This document shows, piece after piece, positions 25,014 through 37,844 of a DNA stretch of 64,000 nt. A program made the position numbers and the translations under genes. The notes below the pieces were generated by a model. It did not search any database. It was not told where the DNA came from and saw only the letters and a program-made list of their open reading frames with translations. This stretch comes from Tautonia plasticadhaerens (GTDB lineage Bacteria; Planctomycetota; Planctomycetia; Isosphaerales; Isosphaeraceae), in NCBI RefSeq assembly GCF_007752535.1, contig NZ_CP036426.1, positions 186,001-250,000 on the forward strand, given 5' to 3'. Position 1 is the first letter of the stretch. Each line of letters opens with the position of its first letter.

Positions 25014-25877
25014 TCAGCGGCACTCGACGTTCAGCACGTCGGTGAGATTGGGGGGGAGCGCCGCGAACGACTCGAACTCGGCCGCCCGGGCCTGGGCCCT
25101 GAGGGCGACCCCCAGGGTCGTCACGACGGCGGTCGCCAGCAGGACCGCCAGCGGGCCGAGCCACCGGGGCGGGCGTCGGGCGTGCTCGAAAGCCCGGGCC
25201 AGCTCGGCCGGCCGCGAGGCCCCGGCCGACAGGAGCCCCCGGGCGTCGTCGAGCATCGCGCCGACCGTCTTCTCCAGCAGATCCCCGGGCACGGCCGCGG
25301 AAGCCCGCCGGCCGGGCCAGGCCAGCAGGAGGAGCAAGGCCGGGGCGATCCCCCGACGGGCCAGACGGCCCCGGAGCCGCCTCCGACCCCGGACCAGCCG
25401 GGTCTTCAGCGTGCCGAGCGGCCAGTCCAGCCGACGGGCCGCCTCCTCGTGGCTGCAACCCCCGAGGTAGCACAGCTCGATCGGCTCCCGGTACGACCTA
25501 GGCAGCCGGGCCAGCTCCTCGCGCACGACCCGCTCCGAGTCGTCCCAGGCTCGCCCGGGTTCCCAGCAGGCCGGGGACATCGCCGCAATCCTCCGCTCGT
25601 GGTCCCGACGCCGGGCCGCATCCCTCCTCGCCCGGGCGGCGACCCTGAGGGCGACCCCATAGAGCCAGTTTCCCAGGGTCTCCGGGTCTCGGATCGTCGG
25701 CGCCTTGCGGACGAGGACGAGGAAGGTGGCCTGGAACGCGTCTTCGACCTCGTCCGGGTCGCCTAGGATCCGGCGGCAGGCGCGGAGGACCGCCGGGCCG
25801 TGCCGGGCCACCAGATCTCGGAAGGCCGCCTCGCTCCGCTCGGAAACGAATTCGCCGAGGAGTTGATGATCGGTCAT
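25014..25877 (-). CDS. ECF sigma factor with C-terminal membrane segment
   Basis: Sigma factor of 287 residues, unlike the LLPLVYDELR group elsewhere in the window. Region 2: FRDLVARHGPAVLRACRRILGDPDEVEDAFQATFLVLVRKA. Region 4: LPRSYREPIELCYLGGCSHEEAARRLDWPLGTLKTRLVRGRRRLRGRL. Beyond residue 180 it has a hydrophobic LLLLLAWPG stretch and a second, clear membrane helix (about 235-258; WLGPLAVLLATAVVTTLGVAL), so the factor is probably membrane-tethered. This architecture recalls planctomycete ECF factors with long C-terminal extensions. No anti-sigma gene is adjacent; the fused tail may replace one (inference). Confidence 0.85.
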   Translation of the reverse strand: MTDHQLLGEFVSERSEAAFRDLVARHGPAVLRACRRILGDPDEVEDAFQATFLVLVRKAPTIRDPETLGNWLYGVALRVAARARRDAARRRDHERRIAAMSPACWEPGRAWDDSERVVREELARLPRSYREPIELCYLGGCSHEEAARRLDWPLGTLKTRLVRGRRRLRGRLARRGIAPALLLLLAWPGRRASAAVPGDLLEKTVGAMLDDARGLLSAGASRPAELARAFEHARRPPRWLGPLAVLLATAVVTTLGVALRAQARAAEFESFAALPPNLTDVLNVECR

Positions 25878-26813: not shown

Positions 26814-27794
26814 ATGCCGAGGCGTCCTGTCGGCTTCACGATCATCGAGCTGCTGGTGGTCGTCGCGATCGTCGGCGTGCTGGTCGCGCTCCTGTTGCCC
26901 GCCGTGCAGGGCGCCCGGGAGGCGGCCCGGCGGGTGCAGTGCACCAACAACCTGAAGCAGATCGCCCTGGCGATGCACCACTACCACGACGTCCACCGCT
27001 GCTTCCCCCCGGGGAAGAAGGGCTGCTGCTGGGGGACCTGGCTGGTCTACGTCCTGCCCCACCTGGAGCGGCCCGCCCTCTATGACTCCTGGAACGCCGA
27101 CGGCAGCAACCTGCCGGGCGTGCCGTCCGAGCACGACGACCCGCTCCGATATTTCGGCGCGGCCAACCGGACCGTGACCTCGACCTGGATTTCCGCCTAC
27201 CTCTGCCCCAGCGACGACACCAACGCCCCGATCTCCGAGCGGATGAACGGCGTGACCTACTCCTGCACCTCGCAGAACTACGCCGCGAACTTCGGCAACA
27301 CGACCCAGTTCCAGGAGGATTTCCGGGGGGACGCCTTCGGCGGCGCCCCGTTCGTCGACATCGGTTCCCCCTACCGGGGCCTGACCCGGACCGACCCCGG
27401 TCGTCGGACCGTCGGCCTCAGCGGCCTGGTCGACGGCACCGGCCAGACGCTCCTGCTTTCCGAGGTGGTCGTCGGCCGGGGGAGGGACCTCCGGGGCTTC
27501 TCCTGGTGGGGGGACGCCGCCGGCTTCGAGGCCTTCCTCACGCCCAACAGCTCCTTCCCCGACGCCATGTTCAGCCCGTACTACTGCGACCCCTCCCCCC
27601 CCAACCCCCCCTGCACCGCCGCCACCACCGCCCTGCCCGACAACTACGGCGCCCGCAGCCGACACCCCAGCGGGGTGAACGCGGCGATGGCCGACGGCTC
27701 CGTCCGATTCGTCCGGGACGCGATCGACGCCCTGACCTGGCGGGCCCTCAGCACGACCCGGGGCGCGGAGGTGATCTCGTCGGACTCCTATTGA
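26814..27794 (+). CDS. DUF1559 prepilin-like protein
   Basis: Type IV pilin/pseudopilin-like protein of 326 residues. Prepilin leader cut before G-FTIIELLVVVAIVGVLVALLLPAVQGAREAARR, then the DUF1559 head: CTNNLKQIALAMHHYHDVHRCFPPG, WLVYVLPHLERPALYD, AYLCPSDD, the Gly-rich LVDGTGQTLLLSE block and the C-terminal NAAMADGSVRFV (H-X9-DG region). DUF1559 proteins are massively expanded in planctomycetes; their assembly partner and function are unsettled. It follows a small lipoprotein gene, a frequent arrangement. A second DUF1559 gene is at 53134-54150. Confidence 0.92.
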   Translation: MPRRPVGFTIIELLVVVAIVGVLVALLLPAVQGAREAARRVQCTNNLKQIALAMHHYHDVHRCFPPGKKGCCWGTWLVYVLPHLERPALYDSWNADGSNLPGVPSEHDDPLRYFGAANRTVTSTWISAYLCPSDDTNAPISERMNGVTYSCTSQNYAANFGNTTQFQEDFRGDAFGGAPFVDIGSPYRGLTRTDPGRRTVGLSGLVDGTGQTLLLSEVVVGRGRDLRGFSWWGDAAGFEAFLTPNSSFPDAMFSPYYCDPSPPNPPCTAATTALPDNYGARSRHPSGVNAAMADGSVRFVRDAIDALTWRALSTTRGAEVISSDSY

Positions 27795-27919: not shown

Positions 27920-28975
27920 CTACGGGCGGCGGGAGGCCGCGTCGATCGCCGAGGTCAAGGCCGGGCCGATCCGGGAGGGCGGGAGGACTTCGACGGCCGC
28001 TCCCAGCTCGACCGCCGCCCGGGGCATACCCCAGACGGTGCAGGTCTCACGGTCCTGGGCGATGGTGTGCCATCCTTGCCCTCGGAGGGCGAGCAGCCCC
28101 CGGGCCCCGTCGCGGCCCATCCCGGTCAGGACCACGGCCACCCCCGGCCGGACCCGTCGTGCCGCCAGGCTCTCGAAGAACACGTCGACGCTCGGCCGGT
28201 AGGGCAGCGACTCCGGATCGGCAGTGATCGCCAGCCGGCCGCGGTCCTCCAGCGCGACGTGGTCGTCGGTGCCGCTGACCAGGACCGCCCCCGCCTCGGG
28301 CCGTTCCCCCCCGACGATCAGCCGGACGGGGAGCCGAGAATGCCCCTCCAGCCACTTCGTCAGCCCCGGCGCGAAGGAGGCGTCGATGTGCTGGATGACC
28401 ACGACGGCCGCCCCCCAGCCGGCCGGCAGCGCCTCCAGGATCTCGGCGAGCGCCTTCGGCCCGCCGGTCGAGGACCCGATGACGACCATCGGCGGCAGGT
28501 CGTCGATCGGCGACGCGGGGCGGGACGCCGGGGCGGGCCCCTCCGTGGGCCGGGGGGGCGGGGCGCGATCCGCCGTCGGGCGGGCCGCCAGCAGGGCGAG
28601 CTGCGAGAGTTTCCGGGCCAGGTCCTCCCCGCCGGTCGCGACGCCGCCGGGGCCCAGCGCCGGCGTGTTCACGGCGTCCAGGGCGCCGTGCCCCATCGCC
28701 TCGTAGACGCGGTCCATGTTCCCGCTGACCGTCGCCGTCACGACCAGGATCGGGCACGGGCTGCCGATCATGATCCGGCGGGTCGCCTCGACCCCGTCCA
28801 TCCGGGGCATGATGAGGTCCATCAGCAGGGCGTCGGGCCGGTCGGCGGCCGCGCGGTCGACGGCCTCGGCCCCGTCCGCGGCGGTCCAGGCGACCTCCGC
28901 GCCGGGGACCGAACGGACGACGCGCCGGAGCGCCTCGGTCGCCAGGGCCGAGTCGTTGACGATCGCCACCCTCAC
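27920..28975 (-). CDS. cheB: CheB-type receptor methylesterase (WspF position)
   Basis: Protein-glutamate methylesterase of 351 residues that removes methyl groups from chemoreceptors. N-terminal receiver domain with phospho-acceptor Asp53 (LMDLIMPRMDG) and a C-terminal esterase with the catalytic triad: Ser169 in VIGSSTGGPKAL, His196 in VVIQHIDASF, and Asp289 in LTGMGRDGARG. It starts with GTG, overlapping the stop of cheA by 4 nt (GTGA), so it is the last gene of the operon. In Wsp systems the equivalent gene, WspF, opposes CheR and its loss locks the pathway on. Confidence 0.93.
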   Translation of the reverse strand: MRVAIVNDSALATEALRRVVRSVPGAEVAWTAADGAEAVDRAAADRPDALLMDLIMPRMDGVEATRRIMIGSPCPILVVTATVSGNMDRVYEAMGHGALDAVNTPALGPGGVATGGEDLARKLSQLALLAARPTADRAPPPRPTEGPAPASRPASPIDDLPPMVVIGSSTGGPKALAEILEALPAGWGAAVVVIQHIDASFAPGLTKWLEGHSRLPVRLIVGGERPEAGAVLVSGTDDHVALEDRGRLAITADPESLPYRPSVDVFFESLAARRVRPGVAVVLTGMGRDGARGLLALRGQGWHTIAQDRETCTVWGMPRAAVELGAAVEVLPPSRIGPALTSAIDAASRRP

Positions 28976-31872
28976 CGCCGCACCGCCTCCCCGATCAGGT
29001 CGACGACGGTCGAAATGAACGTCTCGTCGTGGAAGCTCCCCTTGGTCAGGTAGGCGTCGGCCCCGGCGTCGAGGCCGCGGAGGCGGTCTTCCGCCCGGTC
29101 CTTGTAGGACACGATGACCACGGGGAGCCCGCGCAGCCGAGGGTCGTCGCGGACGAGTCGGACCAGCCCGATCCCGTCCAGCCTCGGCATGTCCACGTCG
29201 CTGACCACCAGATCATACCGCCCCTGCCGCAGGGCATTCCACCCGTCCATGCCGTCGACCGCCGTGTCCACCTCGTACCCGTGGTTGGCCAGCAGCTGGC
29301 GTTCCAGCTCCCGGACCGTGATCGAGTCGTCCACCACCAGGATCCGCTTCGGCCCCGGGCCCTCCCCGCCCGCCTCGACCGGCCGGGCATCCGACGCCGC
29401 CAGCCGGAACCGATGGCCTTGCAGCCTCGCGTCGATCGACCGGACGAGATCCTCGACGTCCAAAATCAGGACCACCCGGCCGTCGTCCAGGACCGAGGCC
29501 CCGGCCACGTCGGGCACCTTGCCCAGCCTCGCGTCCAGCGGCCGGATGTCCAGGTCCCGCTCGCCGATCAGGGCGTCGACCACCATCCCGAAGCGCTGCC
29601 CGCGGTCGGCGACCACCACGATCGGGGACCGGCCCCCGGCGACCGGCCATCCCGGGTCCTCTCCCAGGCCCAGCACCAGCGCGGCCGGGACCAGGCCGAT
29701 CGGCTGGTCGTCGTCCACCCGGATGAACGGCCTGCCCTCCAGCTCCTCCAGCTCGTCGGGGGCGGCGACGACCACGCGATCGAGCCGGTTCAGCGGCACC
29801 GCGTACGGCTCCCCGCCGATCCCCACCAGCAGCGCCCGGATCACGGATCGGGTGATCGGCAGCCGGAGGTGGAACTGGGTCCCCTTGCCCGGCGTCGAGG
29901 CCGTCTGGAGCATCCCGCCGACCGACTGCACCATGCTCTGCACCACGTCCAACCCCACCCCCCGGCCGGAGAGCTCGGTCACCTCCCCCTTGGTCGAGAA
30001 GCCGGGCAGGAACAGGAACTCGAACAGCTCGGCGTCGGTCATCTGCGCCGCCATCGCCGCGCCGGCCAGCCCCCGCTCGACGACCTTGGCCCGGAGCCGC
30101 TCGGGGTCGAGGCCCCGGCCGTCGTCCGAGACGGTCAGGTGCAGCATCCCCGCCTGGTGCCTCCCCTCCAGCCGGACCGCCCCCTCGGCCGGCTTGCCGG
30201 CGGCGACGCGGTCCTCGGGCGTTTCGAGCCCGTGGTCGAGGGCGTTGCGGATCAGGTGATTGAGCGGCGCCTCGAGCCGGTCGAGGATGTCGCGGTCCAC
30301 GCCGGTCCGATCGCCCACCACCTCGAAGCGGACCTTCTTGCCCAGCTGACGGGCCACGTCCCGGACCATCCGGGGGAAGCCCCGGACCCCGTCGGCCAGC
30401 GGCCGCATCCGGCTCTGGATCACCTCGTGGTGGAGGCGCTCGGACAGCTCCTCGTTCCGACGGGCGTAGCGTTCGAGCGATTCCAGGACGCGGTCCACCT
30501 CGGCCAGGCTGCGATCGGCGGCATCCTGCGCGTGCCCCATCGCCTCGAGGCGGGCGAGGTCCTCCCCGGGCCGGTCGGCCCCCCCGGCGTCGCGACGCCG
30601 GAGCTTCCGGAGCGATTCGCAGAGCCCCGCGTGGTGCCCCCTCACGGCCATCAGGGCGTCGACCAGCGGCCTGAGCTGCCGCACCTCGACGAGGGACTCG
30701 CCGGCCAGCCCCAGCAATTGCGTCAGGCTCCCGGCCGCCACCCTCACCACCGCGTCGGGCGAGGTCGCCGGGGCCGCCTTCCCCGGGGGCGGCCCGACCC
30801 CGGGCGTCGCCGTCGGGACGGGGGGAGTCGCATCCCCGGATCCCGGGGGCGACGCGGGTGCGGCCGCCTCGGGCTCGTCCGCCCCGGGGGCGGCGGGCGA
30901 CGTCGGCCCGGCGTGCGGCGACGCCCGCGGGGTAACCTCCCCGCCCTCGGCGATGGCCCGGAGCGCGGATTCGAGGTCGTCCACCCGTCCCGAGTTCGAC
31001 CGGTGCCAGTCCTCGAAGCTCGACTCGTCGAGCCCGCCGCACTCCGAGAGCAGGTCGACGGCCCTCAGGCAGGTGTCCACCCCCTCGGGCCGCAGGGTGA
31101 TGGCGCCGCGTTGTGAGGCGACCATGACGTCCTCGAGGGCGTGGGCGAGGCGCTCGGCGGCGGCGTGCCCGACGATGCGGGCCGCCCCCTTGAGCGAGTG
31201 CGCCGCCCGCATCATCGGCTCCAACGCCGACGGGACCGCCCCCTCGAGGTCCAACGCGACCAGCCCCTCCGACAGCGTCTGCACGTAGACCTCCGCCTCC
31301 TGGCGGAACAGCTCCAGCAGCGACAGGTCGTCCAGGTACGCCTCGGCCGAATCGGCCCGGGCCGGGGGAGCCGGGGGCTCGGACTCGGGCTCGGCGGGGG
31401 GCCCGGCGCGGGGCGTACCCAGGGCCTCGCCCGGAGGAAGGGGAACGGGCGTCGTCGGCGGGCGGCCCTCGGCCACGGCCCGCAGCGAGGCGGCGAGCCG
31501 ATCCGCCCGATCCGCCTCGGCCTCGGCCCACGCCGGCAGCTCCTCGTTCGAGGTCGAGGCGCACGAGGCCAGCCAGTCGACCGCCTCGAGCCCGGCGTCG
31601 ACCGCGTGCCCCGCCAGGGTGATGTCGCCGCGTTGTGAGGCGACCATGACGTCCTCGAGGGCGTGGGCGAGGCGCTCGGCGGCGGCGAGCCCGACGATGC
31701 GGGCCGCCCCCTTGAGCGAGTGCGCCGCCCGCATCATCGGCTCCAACGCCGACGGGACTGCGTCCCCTTGTTCGATCGCCAGCAGCCCCTTGGACAACGT
31801 GTCGACGTATTCGCCCGCCTCCTGGCGGAACAGGTCGAGCAGCGTGAGGTCCAGCCCGCCCCCGTCGCTCAT
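28972..31872 (-). CDS. cheA: CheA hybrid kinase with two Hpt domains and C-terminal receiver (WspE position)
   Basis: Histidine kinase of 966 residues. Two phosphotransfer (Hpt) domains, each with AAHSLKGAARIVG: His51 and His225. A Pro/Ala-rich linker follows, then dimerisation helices, the HATPase domain (LNHLIRNALDHGLETPED, DDGRGLD, GRGVGLDVV), the CheW-like P5 domain (AVPLNRLDRVV), and a C-terminal receiver (about 845-966) with SDVDMPRLDG as acceptor site. This is the WspE type of architecture; WspE phosphorylates a partner response regulator, here not identified in the window. The start overlaps the upstream cheW stop by 4 nt (ATGA), and its own stop overlaps cheB. The near-identical Hpt copies are described separately. 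Confidence 0.93.
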   Translation of the reverse strand: MSDGGGLDLTLLDLFRQEAGEYVDTLSKGLLAIEQGDAVPSALEPMMRAAHSLKGAARIVGLAAAERLAHALEDVMVASQRGDITLAGHAVDAGLEAVDWLASCASTSNEELPAWAEAEADRADRLAASLRAVAEGRPPTTPVPLPPGEALGTPRAGPPAEPESEPPAPPARADSAEAYLDDLSLLELFRQEAEVYVQTLSEGLVALDLEGAVPSALEPMMRAAHSLKGAARIVGHAAAERLAHALEDVMVASQRGAITLRPEGVDTCLRAVDLLSECGGLDESSFEDWHRSNSGRVDDLESALRAIAEGGEVTPRASPHAGPTSPAAPGADEPEAAAPASPPGSGDATPPVPTATPGVGPPPGKAAPATSPDAVVRVAAGSLTQLLGLAGESLVEVRQLRPLVDALMAVRGHHAGLCESLRKLRRRDAGGADRPGEDLARLEAMGHAQDAADRSLAEVDRVLESLERYARRNEELSERLHHEVIQSRMRPLADGVRGFPRMVRDVARQLGKKVRFEVVGDRTGVDRDILDRLEAPLNHLIRNALDHGLETPEDRVAAGKPAEGAVRLEGRHQAGMLHLTVSDDGRGLDPERLRAKVVERGLAGAAMAAQMTDAELFEFLFLPGFSTKGEVTELSGRGVGLDVVQSMVQSVGGMLQTASTPGKGTQFHLRLPITRSVIRALLVGIGGEPYAVPLNRLDRVVVAAPDELEELEGRPFIRVDDDQPIGLVPAALVLGLGEDPGWPVAGGRSPIVVVADRGQRFGMVVDALIGERDLDIRPLDARLGKVPDVAGASVLDDGRVVLILDVEDLVRSIDARLQGHRFRLAASDARPVEAGGEGPGPKRILVVDDSITVRELERQLLANHGYEVDTAVDGMDGWNALRQGRYDLVVSDVDMPRLDGIGLVRLVRDDPRLRGLPVVIVSYKDRAEDRLRGLDAGADAYLTKGSFHDETFISTVVDLIGEAVRR
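31097..31236 (-). repeat. Near-identical 140-bp repeat, copy 1 (second Hpt domain)
   Basis: Encodes the second Hpt motif region of cheA. It matches 31619-31758 with only two visible mismatches at a constant offset of 522 bp (174 codons). Confidence 0.9.
31619..31758 (-). repeat. Near-identical 140-bp repeat, copy 2 (first Hpt domain)
   Basis: Encodes the first Hpt motif region of cheA, partner of 31097-31236. Flanking coding sequence diverges quickly, so homogenisation stops sharply at both ends. Confidence 0.9.
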
Positions 31873-32480
31873 CGGTCGAAGGCCTCCAACGCGTCGAGGA
31901 ACCGCCCCGAGTCGAGGACCCCCACGGTCCGGTCCCGCCAGCGGAAGGTCGCCTCGCAGTGGCCCTCCGCCCGCTCGACCGTCGACGGGAGCCCCCGGAG
32001 CCGGTCGGCAGGGACGACGTGTACGCCGACCACCTCGTCGGCCTCGAAGGCGACCCAGCCGGCCCCCCGGGCCCCCTCCGCCACCACGATCCGCCTCCCC
32101 TCCCCCCCGCCCGCGCCCGGCGCCCGGGCGTCGAGCGACAGCAGCCGGGCCAGGTCGACGCAGGGCGTCAGCCGCCCCCGGATGTTCACCAGCCCCCGGA
32201 GCAGGCCGCCGACGCGGTGCGGCACGCGGTGGACCGGCCGGGCCTCGACGACCTCGACGAGGATCGGCGTCCGGACCGCCAGCCAGCTGCGACCCAACCG
32301 GAAGACCAGCAGCGAGGCGGTGTCGCCGGAATCCTCCGCCTCCGGCTCGGCCAGCACGGCCGCCCACTCGGCCAGGTAGCCCGGCGGGGCGGGCCGGTCG
32401 AACAGGCGTCGTGCCTCCTCGGAGAGCCTGCGGGCGTCGGCCCGAAGGCCCCGGTCGTCGTCGGGGTCGTGCCCGTTCAT
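31869..32480 (-). CDS. CheW-family coupling protein (WspD position)
   Basis: Coupling protein of 203 residues linking receptor to CheA. The N-terminal 45 residues are an added charged helix (RRLSEEARRLFDRP); then a CheW fold: LLVFRLGRSWLAVRTPILVEVVE, the CheW landmark RGLVNIRGRLTPCVDLARLL, and WVAFEADEVVGVHVV. ATGA overlaps join it to cheR upstream and cheA downstream. Possession of two different CheW proteins flanking cheR is a Wsp trait. Confidence 0.88.
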   Translation of the reverse strand: MNGHDPDDDRGLRADARRLSEEARRLFDRPAPPGYLAEWAAVLAEPEAEDSGDTASLLVFRLGRSWLAVRTPILVEVVEARPVHRVPHRVGGLLRGLVNIRGRLTPCVDLARLLSLDARAPGAGGGEGRRIVVAEGARGAGWVAFEADEVVGVHVVPADRLRGLPSTVERAEGHCEATFRWRDRTVGVLDSGRFLDALEAFDR

Positions 32481-33778
32481 GATCCGACCTCCCGCCGGTC
32501 CGCCCGATCGGCCCGGCGTCGGTAGTTCGCGGCGGCGGCCCGGTCCCCCTTCGCCTCGGCCAGCGCCGCCAGCGCCAGCAACGCGTCGACGCGATGGCCG
32601 TCCAGGTAGACCGCGCGCCGGAAGGACGCCTCGGCCAGATCCGACCGGCCGGCGCCCTGCGCGATCGCGCCCAGCAGGACGTGCGCCGACGGATCCGACG
32701 GCGACCGCGACACCAGGCGACCGGCCATGGCCGTCGCCGCCTCCCAGGCGCCCTGATTGGCCAGCTCGGCCGCGCGTTCGACGGTGTCCGTCGCCCCGGG
32801 GGCCTCGCCGGACGCCGTGACCGGGGGCGTGCGGCGACCCGGGGCGGTCGCCGGGCGGGTCGCCCTCGGGCCTCCCGTCGCCGACCGGGCCCCGGGCCGG
32901 GGGGCCGGGGCGTCGACCCGCCGCGGCGGACCCGGACGCGGCGGGGGGCCGTCCCCGGCCGGGTCGTCGCGCGATCGGAGGAACGCGAACGTCCCCGGCC
33001 TCCCCGTCGCGAGGAAGGCCGGGCCGAGCGGCAGGCCCGCCTCGGCGTGCCCGACGAACAGGGTCCCCCCCGGCGTGACCAGCCTCCCGAACGCCGCCGA
33101 GGCCCGGCGCCTCGCCTCGTCGTGGAAGTAGATCAGGAGATTCCGGCAGAACACCACGTCGAAGTCCCCGAACCGGTCCGCCAGCGCGGGGTCGAGGAGA
33201 TTACCCTGCTGCCAGTCGACGAGGTCTCGGGCGGGAGACGCGACCCGCCACGCCTCCCCGACCCGGTCGAAGTGGCGGTCCCGGACGGCGGCGTCCACGC
33301 CCCGGAACGAATGCGACCGGTAGGTCGCGGCCCGGGCGCGGTCCAGTTCCCGGCGGCTGACGTCGACGGCCACCACGCGGAATCGCCCCGGGGGCAGGCC
33401 GGAATCCAGGAGGGCGATCACCACCGAGTAGGGCTCCTCACCCCCCGCGCAGGGCAGGCAGAGCGACCGCAACGGCGGCCGGCCCGGGTCGTCCCTCCAG
33501 GCCGGGGCGAGGACCATCGCGAGGTGCTCGAATGGGAGCCGGTCGCGGAAGAACCAGCTCTCGGGGACCACCACCTCCTCGATCAGCGCCTGGGGCTCGT
33601 CCTCCCGGCCCGACAGCACCCCCGCGTAGGCCCCGGCGGCGAGCCCGAGGGCCTTCCGCCTCGCCGTCACCGCCTGCGCGATCGGCCCCCGGCCCAACGA
33701 GTCGGGGTTCAGTCCGATCCGCTCCCCCAGCACCCGCTCGGCGGCGATCAGGTCGGGCTCCGACTCGGGGGCGCCCAT
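32477..33778 (-). CDS. cheR: CheR methyltransferase fused to C-terminal TPR (WspC position)
   Basis: SAM-dependent receptor methyltransferase of 433 residues. Catalytic part (about 1-275): VVPESWFFRDRLPFEHL, the SAM loop LCLPCAGGEEPYSVVIAL, VVAVDVSRRELDRARAATY, and FDVVFCRNLLIYFHDEARRR. A Pro/Arg linker precedes TPR-like helices (about 340-430; SDPSAHVLLGAIAQGAGRSDLAEASFRRAVYLDG). A CheR with a TPR tail is typical of WspC and lets the enzyme work without a receptor tether. ATG 33778 is chosen because GGAG lies 8 nt upstream; a GTG at 33787 would instead overlap the preceding cheW stop by 4 nt and add three residues. Confidence 0.9.
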   Translation of the reverse strand: MGAPESEPDLIAAERVLGERIGLNPDSLGRGPIAQAVTARRKALGLAAGAYAGVLSGREDEPQALIEEVVVPESWFFRDRLPFEHLAMVLAPAWRDDPGRPPLRSLCLPCAGGEEPYSVVIALLDSGLPPGRFRVVAVDVSRRELDRARAATYRSHSFRGVDAAVRDRHFDRVGEAWRVASPARDLVDWQQGNLLDPALADRFGDFDVVFCRNLLIYFHDEARRRASAAFGRLVTPGGTLFVGHAEAGLPLGPAFLATGRPGTFAFLRSRDDPAGDGPPPRPGPPRRVDAPAPRPGARSATGGPRATRPATAPGRRTPPVTASGEAPGATDTVERAAELANQGAWEAATAMAGRLVSRSPSDPSAHVLLGAIAQGAGRSDLAEASFRRAVYLDGHRVDALLALAALAEAKGDRAAAANYRRRADRADRREVGS

Positions 33779-33783
33779 GGCGG

Positions 33784-34263
33784 TCACTCCGTCCGGGCCG
33801 CCGACGCCCCGGCCGGCTCTCCGGCCGGATCGACCCCGTCCCGCCCCGCCACCTCGACCAGCAGCCGGGACGGCTCGATCAGCTGGACCAACTGCCCGTC
33901 GACCCGGGCGACCGGGCCGAGGAAGCCCACCCGCTGGACCGGGGCGGCCAGCGTGGTCAGTTCGAGGCCCGAGACGTCCGACAGCTCGCTCACCCGCTCG
34001 GCCGCCAGCCCGAGCCGGCGGCCCTCCCGGTCGGCGCCGAACAGGACGACCCGGGTGCTCAGCCGGTCCTCGCACGGGAGGGCGTCGACCAGCCGGCCGA
34101 GGTCGATGACGGCCACGACCTCCCCCCGGTAGTCGAGCAGCCCGGCGACGGCCGAGGAGGCGTAGGGCAGCCGCCTCAGGGCGACCCGGGGGACCACCTC
34201 CTCCACGAGCGAGACGTCCACGCCGTAGCGTTCACCCCCGGCCTCGAACGTCAGCACCATCAT
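33784..34263 (-). CDS. cheW: CheW coupling protein (WspB position)
   Basis: Single-domain CheW of 159 residues: VLTFEAGGERYGVDVSLVEEVVP, LRRLPYASSAVAGLLDYRGEVVAVIDLGRLV, and VVLFGADREGRRLGLAAERVSEL. It couples the receptor to CheA. It lies 39 nt downstream of the receptor gene, with cheR starting a few bases after its stop. Confidence 0.9.
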   Translation of the reverse strand: MMVLTFEAGGERYGVDVSLVEEVVPRVALRRLPYASSAVAGLLDYRGEVVAVIDLGRLVDALPCEDRLSTRVVLFGADREGRRLGLAAERVSELSDVSGLELTTLAAPVQRVGFLGPVARVDGQLVQLIEPSRLLVEVAGRDGVDPAGEPAGASAARTE

Positions 34264-34302
34264 GAGCCTCGGCCTCCAATCCGACGTCCCGCCGCCGTGC
34301 CG

Positions 34303-36468
34303 TCACGCCCGCCCCGCCGCCGCGTCGCCGCCCGATGCGACCGGTGGCGCCGGGGGTTCCAGCTTGAAGAACGCGATGTCGTCCCGCAGCGTGCCGACGG
34401 CCTGCCGGAGCCGCTCGGTCGCGTCGTTGAACTCGCGGAGCGACGCGGCCGACTGGCCGGCCCCCTCGCTCAGGTGGACCATCGCCTCCCGGATCTGCTC
34501 GGCCCCGAGGGCCTGGGCGCGCATCCCGTCAGTGACCTGCTCGAACCGGGGGGTCAGGTCCCGGACCGCGTCGATGATCTGGCCGAGGCTGCCGGCGACC
34601 CGGTTCACCTCCTCGACCCCCTGGCGCACCTGCTCGTGGAACTTGTCCATCTCCATCACGCCGGCCGAGACGCTCTGCTGCATCTCCTTGACCATCCGCT
34701 CGATGTCCAGCGTGGCCACGGCGGTCTGGTCGGCCAGGCGCCGGATCTCCCGGGCCACCACCAGGAACCCCCGCCCGTACTCCCCGGCCTTCTCGGCCTC
34801 GATCGCCGCGTTGATCGACAGCAGGTTGGTCTGGTCGGCCACCTTGGTGATGGTCGTCACCACGAGGTTGATGTTGTTGGCCCGCTCGCTGATGACCGAC
34901 AGCCGGGAACTGATCGAGCCGGTCGACTCGGCCAGGATGCGCATCGAGTGGTCCATGTTGACCAGCGCCTCGTGCCCCTCGGCCGCCATGGCGCCGGTGC
35001 CGGCGGCCACCTCGTTCACGTCGTTCATCGTCCCCAGCAATTCCTGGCTGGTGGCGGTGATCTGCTTCACCGCGGCGGCGGCCTGATTGGTCGAGGCGCC
35101 GTAGGCCTGTACCGACTGCTCCTGCTGCCGGGACGCCGCCGAGATCGTCGTCGCCGTGCCGAGCAGCTGCACGCTGGACGACTTCATCCGGCCGATCAGG
35201 CCCCGGAGGTACTCGGTCATGGTGCGGAAGGCGGCCAGCAACTGCCCGGGCTCCCCCTCGGCGTGCAGGTCGACCTGCCCGGTCAGGTCGCCGACGGCGA
35301 TCCGGCGCGCCACCTCCGCCGCCGCCCGGATCGGCCGGGCCAGGCTCCCGGCCACCAGGAGGGCCGCCGTCACCACGCCGACGGCCGTCAGGCCGAGCAG
35401 CATGGCCATGGCCGTCCGCTGCCGGGCGATCAGCTCGAACGCCTCGTCGGCGTCCTGCTTGACCACCAGGCCCCATCGGTAGCTCGGCAGGTACCCCCAG
35501 GCGGCCACGGTCGGCTCGCCCCGGTAGTCGACGGCCCGGCCGTATCCCCGCCGCGCCAGGACCGCCTCTTGCAGCGGCAAGGCCCGATCCGATCCCAGCC
35601 TGATCCGCTTGCTGACGGTCGCCTCCCCGCCGCCCGGCAGCGGGACGGTGGCCGTCTCGGAGTCCTCCGACGTCGCGTGGCGGAGCGGGGAGACGATCGT
35701 CACCGTGCGGCCCCCTTCGGCCCCTTCGGGGCGATCGAGGGCGCCGACCAGGACCTCCCCCGTCTCTCCCAGCCCGGTGTGGTCGGAGAAGACGCGGAAC
35801 ACGTCGCGGTTGTCCAGTTGCAGGGCCAGCACGCCGACCAACCGGCCGTCGTCACCCAGCAGCGGCGTGCCCACGAAGGCGATCGACTCGTCCGAACCGG
35901 GATAGGTCGCGAAGGCCGACAGGTCGGCCATGAGGAGCGTCCGGGTCCGCACCACCAGCCTGGCCAGCGGGGAGCCTCGGAGCGGCCCGGACGCGAGATC
36001 CGGGCCCGGGTCGGGCGCCCCGGCCGATCGGAGCAGCAGCGTCCCGTCGGGCGAGAACATCACGACCTCCGGATAGCCGAGCGTCTCCATCGTGTGCGTG
36101 AGCGTCTCCCGGCCCCGGTCGATCAGCTCGCGATACTCGGGGGAGTCCTTCCCGCCTCGCCCGACGATCTCCGCCAGGCGATCGGCCGTGGCGACGAAGG
36201 CCGGGGCCCGGGACAGCGACGTGCCGTACCGGATCCGGTCCCCGGCGAACTGCTCCAATTCGGTCGCCCTCGCCGCCTGGATCACGCCCAGGTTCCGCCG
36301 CACCGTCTCGGCGATCGACCGCGACGAGATCCGGTCCAGCAGCGTCGTCAGCGCCAGGCACGGGACCAGGGCGATCGCCAGGAACCAGAAGGTCAGCCGG
36401 CCGGCGATCGAGCGCGGCACCAGCCGGGAGAGCCGTCGGGCCGCCTCCGCCCTCGAGGACCAACTCAT
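34303..36468 (-). CDS. Wsp-type methyl-accepting chemotaxis protein (receptor)
   Basis: Membrane receptor of 721 residues. TM1 (about 24-44, [20 protein letters not shown]), a large periplasmic Cache-like domain (about 60-330; [35 protein letters not shown]), TM2 (about 345-370), HAMP ([25 protein letters not shown]), then a coiled-coil signalling domain whose tip reads [38 protein letters not shown]. That tip, with [10 protein letters not shown] and [10 protein letters not shown], differs from the flagellar-type consensus and resembles WspA as I recall it. The start overlaps the stop of the upstream binding-protein gene (ATGA). No CheR-docking pentapeptide is seen at the C-terminus (GGDAAAGRA), consistent with a TPR-type CheR. 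Confidence 0.9.
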
Positions 36469-37844
36469 CCGCCGACCTCCCCCGCCGCCCCGGCCGCGCC
36501 CCGATCGGGTGCCCCCTCCCCCGGCCGAGGCCCCGCCGCCTCGGGCCCGGCCGACTCTCCGGCGACGTACTCGGCCGCCCCCGCGGGGTTGCTCCAGCGT
36601 TCACCCCACCCCGTGTAGAGATCCCGCACCAGGTCGTCCCATGCCGACCTGGGGCGAAAGATCGGATAGGGGACCGGCATCACCGGCCGGTCCGAGGCCC
36701 AGACGACCTCGAACCCGCCGTCCTCCGTCACCCGGCCGATCCGGGCGACCTTCCAGGCGTGCTGCGTCTCCGGGTCGATGCTGACCACGCCCTCGGGGGC
36801 CTCGAGGCTCTGCCGACGCAGGGCCCGTCGCACCTCCGCCGGGGAGACCCGGCCCGCCTCCTCCAGCGTCTGCGCCCAGAGCCTCACCCCCACGTAGGCC
36901 GCCTCCATCGGGTCGCTCACCGCCCTGGCCTTGCCGAACCGCGCCCGGAACGCGGCGAGGAACGACCGGTTCGCCGGCCGGTCCAGGCCCTGGAAGTAAT
37001 TCCAGGCCGCGTAATGGCCGACCACGGACCTCAGGTCGCCCATCGACTGGAGTTCCACCTCGGCGATGCTGAACGACACCACCGGAATACGGCGACGGTC
37101 CCGGGTCGCCTCGGCCAGGGCGTCGAAGAATGGGGCGTTGGCCGCGCCGTTGATCGTGTTGAAGATCACGTCCGGCTCGGCCGCCACGATCCGCTCGACG
37201 AGCTCGTCCATCGCCGTGGCCGTCAGCGGCACGTACGCCTCGCCGGCCACCCGGCCTCCCAGCGCGGTCAGCTGATCGCGGATGATGGCGTTGGCCACCC
37301 GGGGGAAGATGTAGTCGGACCCCACCAGGAAGCACGACGTCCCCAGCCGGTCCAGGCTCCACGACACGGCGGGGATGATCTGCTGGTTGGGCGCGGCCCC
37401 CAGATAGACGATGTTCGGGGACAGCTCGCAGCCCTCGTACTGCACCGGGTAGAAGAGCAGGTGGTCGGACTGCTCGACGATCGGCCGCACCGCCTTCCGG
37501 CTGGCCGAGGTCCAGCAGCCGAAGATCGCCAGGACCCCCTCCTCCTCGATGAGCCGGGTCGCCTCCCTGGCGAACACCGCCTCGTCCGACGCGCCATCGG
37601 CGACCACCCACCGTACCGGCCGACCGAGGACGCCGCCCCGCTCGTTGAGCTGCTCGAGGGCCAGCACCGTGGCGTCGATCACCCCGCGCTCGCTCTCGGC
37701 CATCGGGCCGGTCCGGGAGTGCAGGATGCCGACCGTGATCGGCGTCGCGCGCGGCCCGATCACCCCCGCCACGGCCAGGCCGCCGACGACCGCGGCCGTC
37801 GCCACCAGCGTCAGCGCCACCCCCGCCGCCAGTCGCCTCAACAC
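36465..37844 (-). CDS. UrtA/AmiC-type periplasmic amide or urea binding protein at the head of the chemosensory operon
   Basis: Type I periplasmic binding protein of 459 residues of the Peripla_BP_5 (UrtA/FmdD/AmiC) family: [85 protein letters not shown] and [13 protein letters not shown]. The N-terminal hydrophobic stretch (about 8-30) has no lipobox, so it is membrane-anchored or cleaved after it. GTG start with GGAGGGG upstream. It has no ABC permease or ATPase beside it but overlaps the receptor gene by 4 nt (ATGA), so a sensory rather than transport role is inferred. Family members bind short amides or urea. Confidence 0.88.

Follow-up and report, generated by a model that had tools for sequence, protein, structure and literature searches.

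One important question raised by the genome of Tautonia plasticadhaerens is what a Wsp-type chemosensory operon may sense and control when no WspR accompanies it. The window analysed here is a stretch of 64,000 nucleotides (positions 186001-250000 of contig C1) from this 9.4-Mb, six-contig genome (G000), and seven minus-strand genes occupy its positions 27920-37844, with a Peripla_BP_5 binding protein first (at 37844) and CheB last (at 27920). These genes probably form a Wsp-type (non-flagellar) chemosensory pathway in which input and output have both been swapped, that is, a Wsp variant new at both ends. An UrtA-like binding protein stands ahead of the receptor, and the slot of WspR is filled by a phosphatase consisting of a receiver domain (REC) and a SpoIIE domain, whose gene adjoins that of WspF in many relatives and sits elsewhere in the window genus. 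A probability of roughly 0.7 is assigned to the explanation, taken as a whole, in which a ligand would act through the binding protein, the receptor and the WspE-like kinase on this REC-SpoIIE protein. In what follows, the family is the host's own, Isosphaeraceae (45 genomes), the phylum sample comprises 392 genomes of Planctomycetota, and the window genus is Tautonia, represented by the window genome and three congeners (L072-L074).

The first gene (36465-37844) encodes a UrtA/AmiC-like protein of 459 amino acids (Pfam Peripla_BP_5, 489 bits), with a hydrophobic N-terminus (a likely membrane tether), a ligand pocket and a C-terminal tail. It is followed by a WspA-like receptor (34303-36468) made up of a transmembrane segment, an ectodomain (dCache in homologues), a second transmembrane segment, a HAMP domain and the signalling domain of methyl-accepting chemotaxis proteins (MCP; Pfam HAMP and MCPsignal). 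The next genes encode a WspB-like CheW (33784-34263, Pfam CheW), a WspC-like CheR (32477-33787, Pfam CheR) whose C-terminal tetratricopeptide repeats (TPR) were matched by NCBIfam TPR-family models and by none of Pfam, and a WspD-like CheW (31869-32480, Pfam CheW). A WspE-like hybrid CheA of 966 amino acids (28972-31872) shows the arrangement Hpt-Hpt-HATPase-CheW-REC (Pfam Hpt twice, HATPase_c, CheW and REC), and a WspF-like CheB methylesterase with a receiver (27920-28975, Pfam REC and CheB_methylest) closes the series. Place, strand and domains agreed with a preliminary description of this DNA, which had also reported mostly 4-nt overlaps (found at five of the six junctions, longest starts assumed, with a 39-nt gap between the receptor and the first CheW) and the absence of WspR beside the operon. 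The downstream neighbour is a DUF1559 gene on the opposite strand (26814-27794), and no gene was predicted by the gene caller in the ~2.4 kb upstream. The order of the operon is preserved in the three congeners (49-92% identity) and is common in the family as far as the contigs extend; hence, it is not due to chance. The tandem Hpt pair (window 28972-31872) is an observation in its own right, and the called length of CheA ranges from 768 to 1106 amino acids among family relatives.

Kinship with Wsp was assessed against two reference operons, located on plasmids of Azoarcus and Mesorhizobium, which have the same gene order, no binding protein ahead, and a last gene annotated as a diguanylate cyclase or a PleD-family regulator. 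The order MCP-CheW-CheR(TPR)-CheW-CheA-REC-CheB is present in the window, and its CheA is 47% identical to WspE of both references, its CheB 52 and 47% identical to WspF, and its MCP signalling part 50 and 49% identical to WspA. A tree of 51 kinase cores (quick method, midpoint root, Shimodaira-Hasegawa-like approximate likelihood ratio test (SH-aLRT) and no bootstrap) placed 44 of them in one WspE clade (SH-aLRT 100). This clade includes the window CheA, 14 family relatives, five proteobacterial WspE-type plasmid kinases and 24 kinases chosen from loci holding the phosphatase gene (18 from named genomes and six others); CheA of E. coli, two other CheAs of the window genome and four further planctomycete CheAs fell outside. 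The Wsp core proposed in the preliminary description was thus upheld in gene order and kinase, but not in the ectodomain of the receptor, for which blastp at 1e-3 returned neither of the two reference WspAs. The WspA-type periplasmic domain is a weak criterion, because wide variation of that domain is reported in the relevant section of PMC8552884.

Homologues of the binding protein (E <= 1e-30) were found in 35 of the 45 family genomes, and the DNA around all 40 matches was read. Linkage was counted per genome, and three genomes (G394, G413 and G424) were excluded since their contigs end, which left 32 to be judged. In 29 of these the gene lies directly before a receptor gene with a like ectodomain; the MCP signalling domain is visible in 28, the exception being G408, whose contig breaks off within the ectodomain. 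In G416 (L092) the gene after the binding protein encodes a HAMP-PAS-hybrid kinase whose ectodomain is related (dCache_1 below the cut-off), and in G395 and G396 it was found only fused behind a Ser/Thr kinase. Of the 29 receptor-linked genomes, 21 also show a WspE-like CheA within the stretch, and the contig ends earlier in six others; che genes are absent from the 19.6 kb read in G425, and in G427 the contig stops just past the receptor. The receptors of these last two genomes are more distant, their signalling part being ~30% identical. The DNA read around the family loci gave no match to LivH or LivM (LivG- and LivF-like ATPase matches lie 2-4 kb upstream in L074), no LivH, LivM, LivG or LivF match was found within window positions 22001-44000, and the binding protein is the sole Peripla_BP_5 match (E <= 0.001) in the whole 9.4-Mb genome. 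The tie between binding protein and receptor put forward in the preliminary description therefore stands: neither an urt-type permease beside the gene nor an adjacency unique to one strain was found across the family loci, and the gene is kept in most relatives. Tandem pairs of the gene occur in G377 and G413. Tandem binding-protein genes with differing pocket residues were seen at L075:13938-16585 (before the receptor) and L076:2-2475 (where the contig ends).

In the phylum sample the binding-protein search gave 56 matches in 44 of the 392 genomes; 40 further loci were read and 12 matches were left unread. At least LivH stands beside the gene in 21 of these 40 non-family loci, a Cache kinase adjoins it in five (in broken pieces in L137) and a Cache MCP in one; it is fused behind a Ser/Thr kinase in five and fused ahead of a hybrid kinase in three, and has none of these partners in five. 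In ten non-family Wsp operons whose receptor gene is uncut, no binding protein stands before the receptor, and the input module therefore looks like an addition at the family level. G364 has a Wsp-phosphatase operon (L209) that yielded no receptor gene, and a pair of binding protein and Cache MCP (L134) on another of its contigs.

In a tree of 80 binding proteins, all 21 permease-linked proteins and five unlinked ones formed one clade (support 98/95) that contains no receptor-linked protein. The Ser/Thr-kinase fusions (eight overall, the kinase being confirmed by Pfam in six, with L139 and L140 judged by their N-terminal sequence) formed a clade of their own (97/92), as did the hybrid-kinase fusions (96/94). 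Across the midpoint are most of the receptor-linked proteins, though not four Cache-kinase-linked ones; the window genus (100/100) was not firmly grouped with the family's other Wsp-linked binding proteins. The residues near urea in UrtA are reported as W120, S122, Y141, Q144, E146, Y190, F192, N246 and S274 in the structural part of PMC10392092, and all nine are conserved in the window protein (W111, S113, Y132, Q135, E137, Y178, F180, N232 and S259), in line with the urea- or amide-type pocket expected from the preliminary description. The full pocket is also present in the three congeners, in 16/21 permease-linked, 5/8 Ser/Thr-fused, 4/6 Cache-kinase-linked, 1/3 other-MCP-linked, 2/3 hybrid-kinase-fused and 5/9 unlinked proteins, and among the 30 Wsp-linked proteins (tandem copies included) only in the four of the window genus. 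The relatives of the binding protein in the PDB are 8tg1, 7s6e, 8hic, 7s6f and 1pea, and the NCBIfam UrtA model TIGR03407 matched it with 433.6 bits, under the cut-off of 492.75. The N-terminus of the Wsp-linked proteins, read by eye, is either a hydrophobic helix or, in a small number of them, a lipobox-like Cys, and the binding protein is likely to be membrane-tethered. A C-terminal tail, R-x4-W-x10/11-W[GDNE], was found in 39 of the 47 proteins that have a receptor, a Cache kinase or a Ser/Thr kinase as partner, in 4/9 unlinked, 0/21 permease-linked and 0/3 hybrid-kinase-fused proteins, and it takes the form R-x4-W-x10-W in the window protein; this motif describes the class and does not test it, because one set of 80 proteins served both to define and to count it. 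The window genome also encodes a urease, and the gene immediately ahead of it is for a urea channel of the UT family.

The output was traced with WspR. A tblastn search with this protein gave a match right after CheB in four relatives, which stopped at WspR residue 232, short of the end of GGDEF, and six such post-CheB proteins were found to consist of Pfam REC and SpoIIE domains. With one of these proteins as query, a REC-SpoIIE homologue (E <= 1e-40) was identified in 36 of the 45 family genomes (G397 matched outside the receiver only). Its context was read in 31 of these 36: it directly follows CheB in 21, lies one opposite-strand gene beyond CheB in one (G420), occurs without CheB in five, and stands apart from the wsp genes in the four genomes of the window genus. 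In 12 of the 21, the CheB-phosphatase pair lies outside the binding-protein stretch, on another contig or some kb away, partly through assembly breaks. Within the window genus, the regulator gene lies directly before the CheW gene of a second che cluster in three genomes (the window genome and two congeners) and before a CheR-like fragment in G432; in the window genome it spans C1:5848905-5850065 (L109:12894-14075) and is followed by CheW, GAF-MCP, CheR, CheA, CheX-like, CheD, CheY and CheB. Its receiver is 61% identical to that of Azoarcus WspR and 60% to that of Mesorhizobium, whereas six other receivers of the genome (three GGDEF proteins, CheA, CheB and CheY) are 26-33% identical to WspR's. 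In a tree of 126 REC-SpoIIE proteins (120 different, quick method), the window copy grouped with its congeners inside a family clade (support 99), in which 23 of the 30 rows follow WspF and four rows from named genomes repeat or nearly repeat family members. D24, D25, D69, K121, D198, D216, D342, D395 and D396, which we take to be functional positions of the receiver and of the acidic SpoIIE site, are invariant in 20/20 aligned REC-SpoIIE proteins.

An unlinked WspR was also considered. The two compact REC-GGDEF proteins of the genome were rejected as orthologues, because their receivers are only ~31% identical to that of WspR, and no WspR-like REC-GGDEF gene was found beside the operon in the relatives searched. 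No terminal REC-GGDEF regulator lies beside the window operon; the protein with the WspR-type receiver carries SpoIIE, and it is equivalent to WspR only in the wider sense in which WspH is. As for the preliminary description, its linkage, core and pocket held, and its output through an unlinked regulator remains plausible with the REC-SpoIIE protein, which it had missed, as candidate.

The same output was found well beyond the family. A CheB search of the phylum sample (E <= 1e-68), which did not select for the phosphatase, identified 20 of the 392 genomes, 19 of which also carry REC-SpoIIE (E <= 1e-60): in 17 it comes directly after CheB, and in two (the window genome and G094) it is located elsewhere. 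The product encoded after CheB in G110 combines a WspR-type receiver with a hybrid kinase (L308), and no WspR-like GGDEF match followed CheB in those phylum loci read. Among named genomes, the best 80 of at least 580 REC-SpoIIE matches, picked through the phosphatase itself and including many metagenome bins, comprised 38 that directly follow CheB, eight that precede an MCP gene, 42 with a WspE-like kinase in the DNA read, 29 without any of these, two with an additional WspR-like gene and none with a binding protein. According to the record titles, the CheB-following ones belong to Planctomycetota, Lentisphaerota, Verrucomicrobiota, Chlamydiota, Thermodesulfobacteriota, Myxococcota, Ignavibacteriota, Acidobacteriota, Elusimicrobiota and Pseudomonadota. 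An RsbW-type gene (PF13581) follows REC-SpoIIE in L281, L289, L290 and L295, RsbW and then STAS in L233, and STAS and then RsbW in L272, with Wsp genes also present at L233, L281 and L290; the next genes were unrelated at the other loci examined. These neighbours in some other phyla suggest that the phosphatase may act through partner switching. In the kinase tree the proteobacterial WspE sequences are nested inside the diversity of kinases from loci with the phosphatase gene. Those kinases were picked via the phosphatase and the deep forks are weakly supported, so that a greater age of the REC-SpoIIE output would be tentative.

Several loci deserve separate mention. At L308:13257-14849 (a planctomycete), the protein encoded after WspF, a WspR-type receiver with a hybrid histidine kinase, is another swap of Wsp output, and so is a protein encoded between CheB and the phosphatase at L276:8359-9819, in which the WspR-type receiver is combined with a guanylate/adenylate cyclase domain. 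Ten REC-SpoIIE genes without adjoining Wsp genes form one clade (L235, L236, L238, L239, L242, L243, L248, L256, L277 and L293); the three of them that were read (L236, L243 and L293) have, 0.8-0.9 kb downstream, an EF-Tu-like gene followed by secE, nusG and rplK-like genes (named by eye), and five others of this clade have a 399-amino-acid gene at the EF-Tu-like position. In L232 and L234 (Methylococcaceae or Methylumidiphilus bins) the Wsp operon ends in a WspR-like gene (42-44% identity, not checked with Pfam), and a REC-SpoIIE gene is divergently transcribed beside it.

In the proposed mechanism, the simplest chain compatible with the observations, the tethered UrtA-like protein would close on a small amide, for which urea is the likeliest candidate in the window genus. 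By analogy with LuxP and LuxQ, the latter of which has a Cache-like fold, it would then engage the ectodomain of the WspA-like receptor encoded next to it. The receptor and the two CheW adaptors would control the WspE-like kinase, with CheR-TPR and CheB adapting the receptor, as is established for those families. The kinase would phosphorylate the WspR-type receiver of the unlinked REC-SpoIIE protein, and the phosphatase would in turn act on a phosphorylated STAS protein and switch a partner of the RsbW type, which would alter the activity of a sigma factor or the like. Gene content, linkage across the family, kinship with Wsp, identity of the pocket and kinship of the unlinked regulator with the WspF-linked ones were observed; the ligand is predicted from the pocket residues, and we infer contact, phosphotransfer and partner switching.

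Several results weigh against this explanation. The window receptor itself has no Pfam Cache domain, so that the Cache-like domain of the preliminary description was recovered in its homologues (a dCache_1 match in 22 of 27 aligned receptors) and not in the window. In mirror-tree comparisons over 21 loci, the binding protein and the ectodomain gave a partial r of 0.53 (0/2000 permutations as high) and the binding protein and CheR one of 0.10 (231/2000), but the control of CheR against the ectodomain reached 0.42 (0/2000); the co-variation is therefore unspecific and was not used as evidence of contact. AlphaFold2 models from the single window sequences were unusable, with a predicted local distance difference test score (pLDDT) of 38.3 for the ectodomain and 43.3 for the binding protein. 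Both Q144 and N246 have been lost in 25 of the 26 Wsp-linked proteins outside the window genus; hence, urea is predicted as ligand for the window genus and not for the family. The pocket reads WSYAEYWVS in eight of those 26, and AmiC has Pro and Val at the two aligned positions. Three family loci carry extra binding-protein genes without a receptor, namely a Ser/Thr-kinase fusion in G430 (L077) and unlinked copies in G401 (L084) and G392 (L101). No RsbW or STAS gene was seen beside REC-SpoIIE in the family, and the window genome was not searched for them. The weakest step is the output, since the regulator adjoins a second che cluster whose own CheA is a possible owner.

This position is the basis of the most serious alternative, which we consider unlikely: the relocated REC-SpoIIE protein may serve the second cluster, and the window kinase may act through its own receiver or through the REC-GGDEF proteins of the genome, two compact ones being available. 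The receiver identities (61% for the regulator and 31% for those two) argue against it, as does the position directly after WspF in 21 of the 31 family contexts; besides, one of the REC-GGDEF genes overlaps by 4 nt a gene of 1604 amino acids with two receiver-like matches (L315, not checked with Pfam), its own apparent partner. It is still less likely that the receptor is a surface or envelope-stress sensor like Pseudomonas WspA, with the binding protein silent or no more than a modulator. The WspA-type signalling domain (~50% identity) and the surface contact reported for Wsp in PMC8552884 would fit such a role; the ectodomain, unlike that of the reference WspAs and Cache-like in homologues, does not, and pairing with the binding protein recurs with non-Wsp receptors and kinases.

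The least probable alternative, and a very improbable one, is that a transport-type UrtA came to lie in the operon by chance and feeds an unlinked urea ATP-binding cassette (ABC) permease. The pocket is identical to that of urea-binding UrtA and TIGR03407 does match, if below its cut-off. Against this, the gene is linked to a receptor or kinase in 32/32 judged family genomes, with no LivH or LivM in that DNA, to which the permease search was confined, and the window protein falls outside the permease-linked clade. The tail, albeit defined on the same set, is absent from permease-linked proteins, the N-terminus read by eye resembles a hydrophobic tether and not a clear signal peptide, and the UT channel beside the urease already explains urea uptake.

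Compared with the Wsp systems of Pseudomonas, Azoarcus and Mesorhizobium, the order and domains of components A to F are the same, but the window operon adds a binding protein ahead, its ectodomain differs from the two references, and the terminal gene, unlinked in the window genome, encodes REC-SpoIIE and not REC-GGDEF. In Burkholderia WspH a WspR-type receiver is likewise joined to another effector, there a histidine kinase and here a SpoIIE/PP2C phosphatase. According to PMC8552884, whose data set is beta- and gammaproteobacterial, Wsp systems have WspH or WspR as output and no other, and the same text calls for the stimuli of WspA to be identified in diverse organisms. UrtA (of UrtABCDE) and AmiC belong to the same Peripla_BP_5 family, and the full pocket is shared with UrtA; the window protein differs from them in having no LivH/LivM-like permease nearby, in being probably tethered and chemoreceptor-linked, and in its C-terminal tail. 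As in LuxP-LuxQ and other pairs, the binding-protein gene adjoins that of the receptor, an adjacency listed in PMC11113362 for 10/11 kinase pairs and 3/11 chemoreceptor pairs; the listed pairs feed kinases or chemoreceptors, and none was found to feed a Wsp array. Among plant-associated bacteria, a single chemoreceptor cluster of one sequence with a Peripla_BP_5 ligand-binding domain appears in a table of PMC8547431; there the domain was assigned inside the receptor, whereas the window protein is separate. The Shewanella Che1-CrsR-CrsA system ties a che locus to a partner-switching regulator controlling RpoS (PMC9855816), but it was assigned to an F7 array and not to Wsp, and CrsR has an anti-sigma factor domain. 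The wsp genes, wspR by name included, have been reported in planctomycetes (PMC6461901 and PMC9119077); REC-PP2C and WspR-like proteins are named separately in the archaeal census of PMC5847659, and the part seen of PMC2577667, on Geobacter che genes, contains nothing on a REC-SpoIIE output of Wsp. Among open-licence PMC papers, none was found that describes a Wsp system with REC-SpoIIE at its end or Peripla_BP_5 at its head.

Elsewhere in the window, a gene with sigma-70 regions 2 and 4, similar to those of the extracytoplasmic function (ECF) type, lies at 25014-25877, ~2 kb off the operon with two opposite-strand genes between, and no tRNA was found by ARAGORN.

These results provide a candidate stimulus for a Wsp pathway (urea or a short amide, through the binding protein) and a third Wsp output, a serine phosphatase that would probably act by partner switching, and they make directly testable the question of what Wsp senses and controls outside Pseudomonas. 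They also suggest how a Wsp operon can exist without WspR in a planctomycete, and warn that a gene should not be named WspR from its receiver alone. A broader view is more doubtful. Planctomycete Peripla_BP_5 proteins might include a class of tethered, tail-marked urea/amide sensors plugging into at least three outputs (Wsp or other Cache chemoreceptors, Cache hybrid kinases and fused Ser/Thr kinases), and REC-SpoIIE might be a third, widespread and perhaps older output of Wsp. If this were true, surface sensing through cyclic diguanylate (c-di-GMP) would count as a single derived branch within a modular Wsp family.

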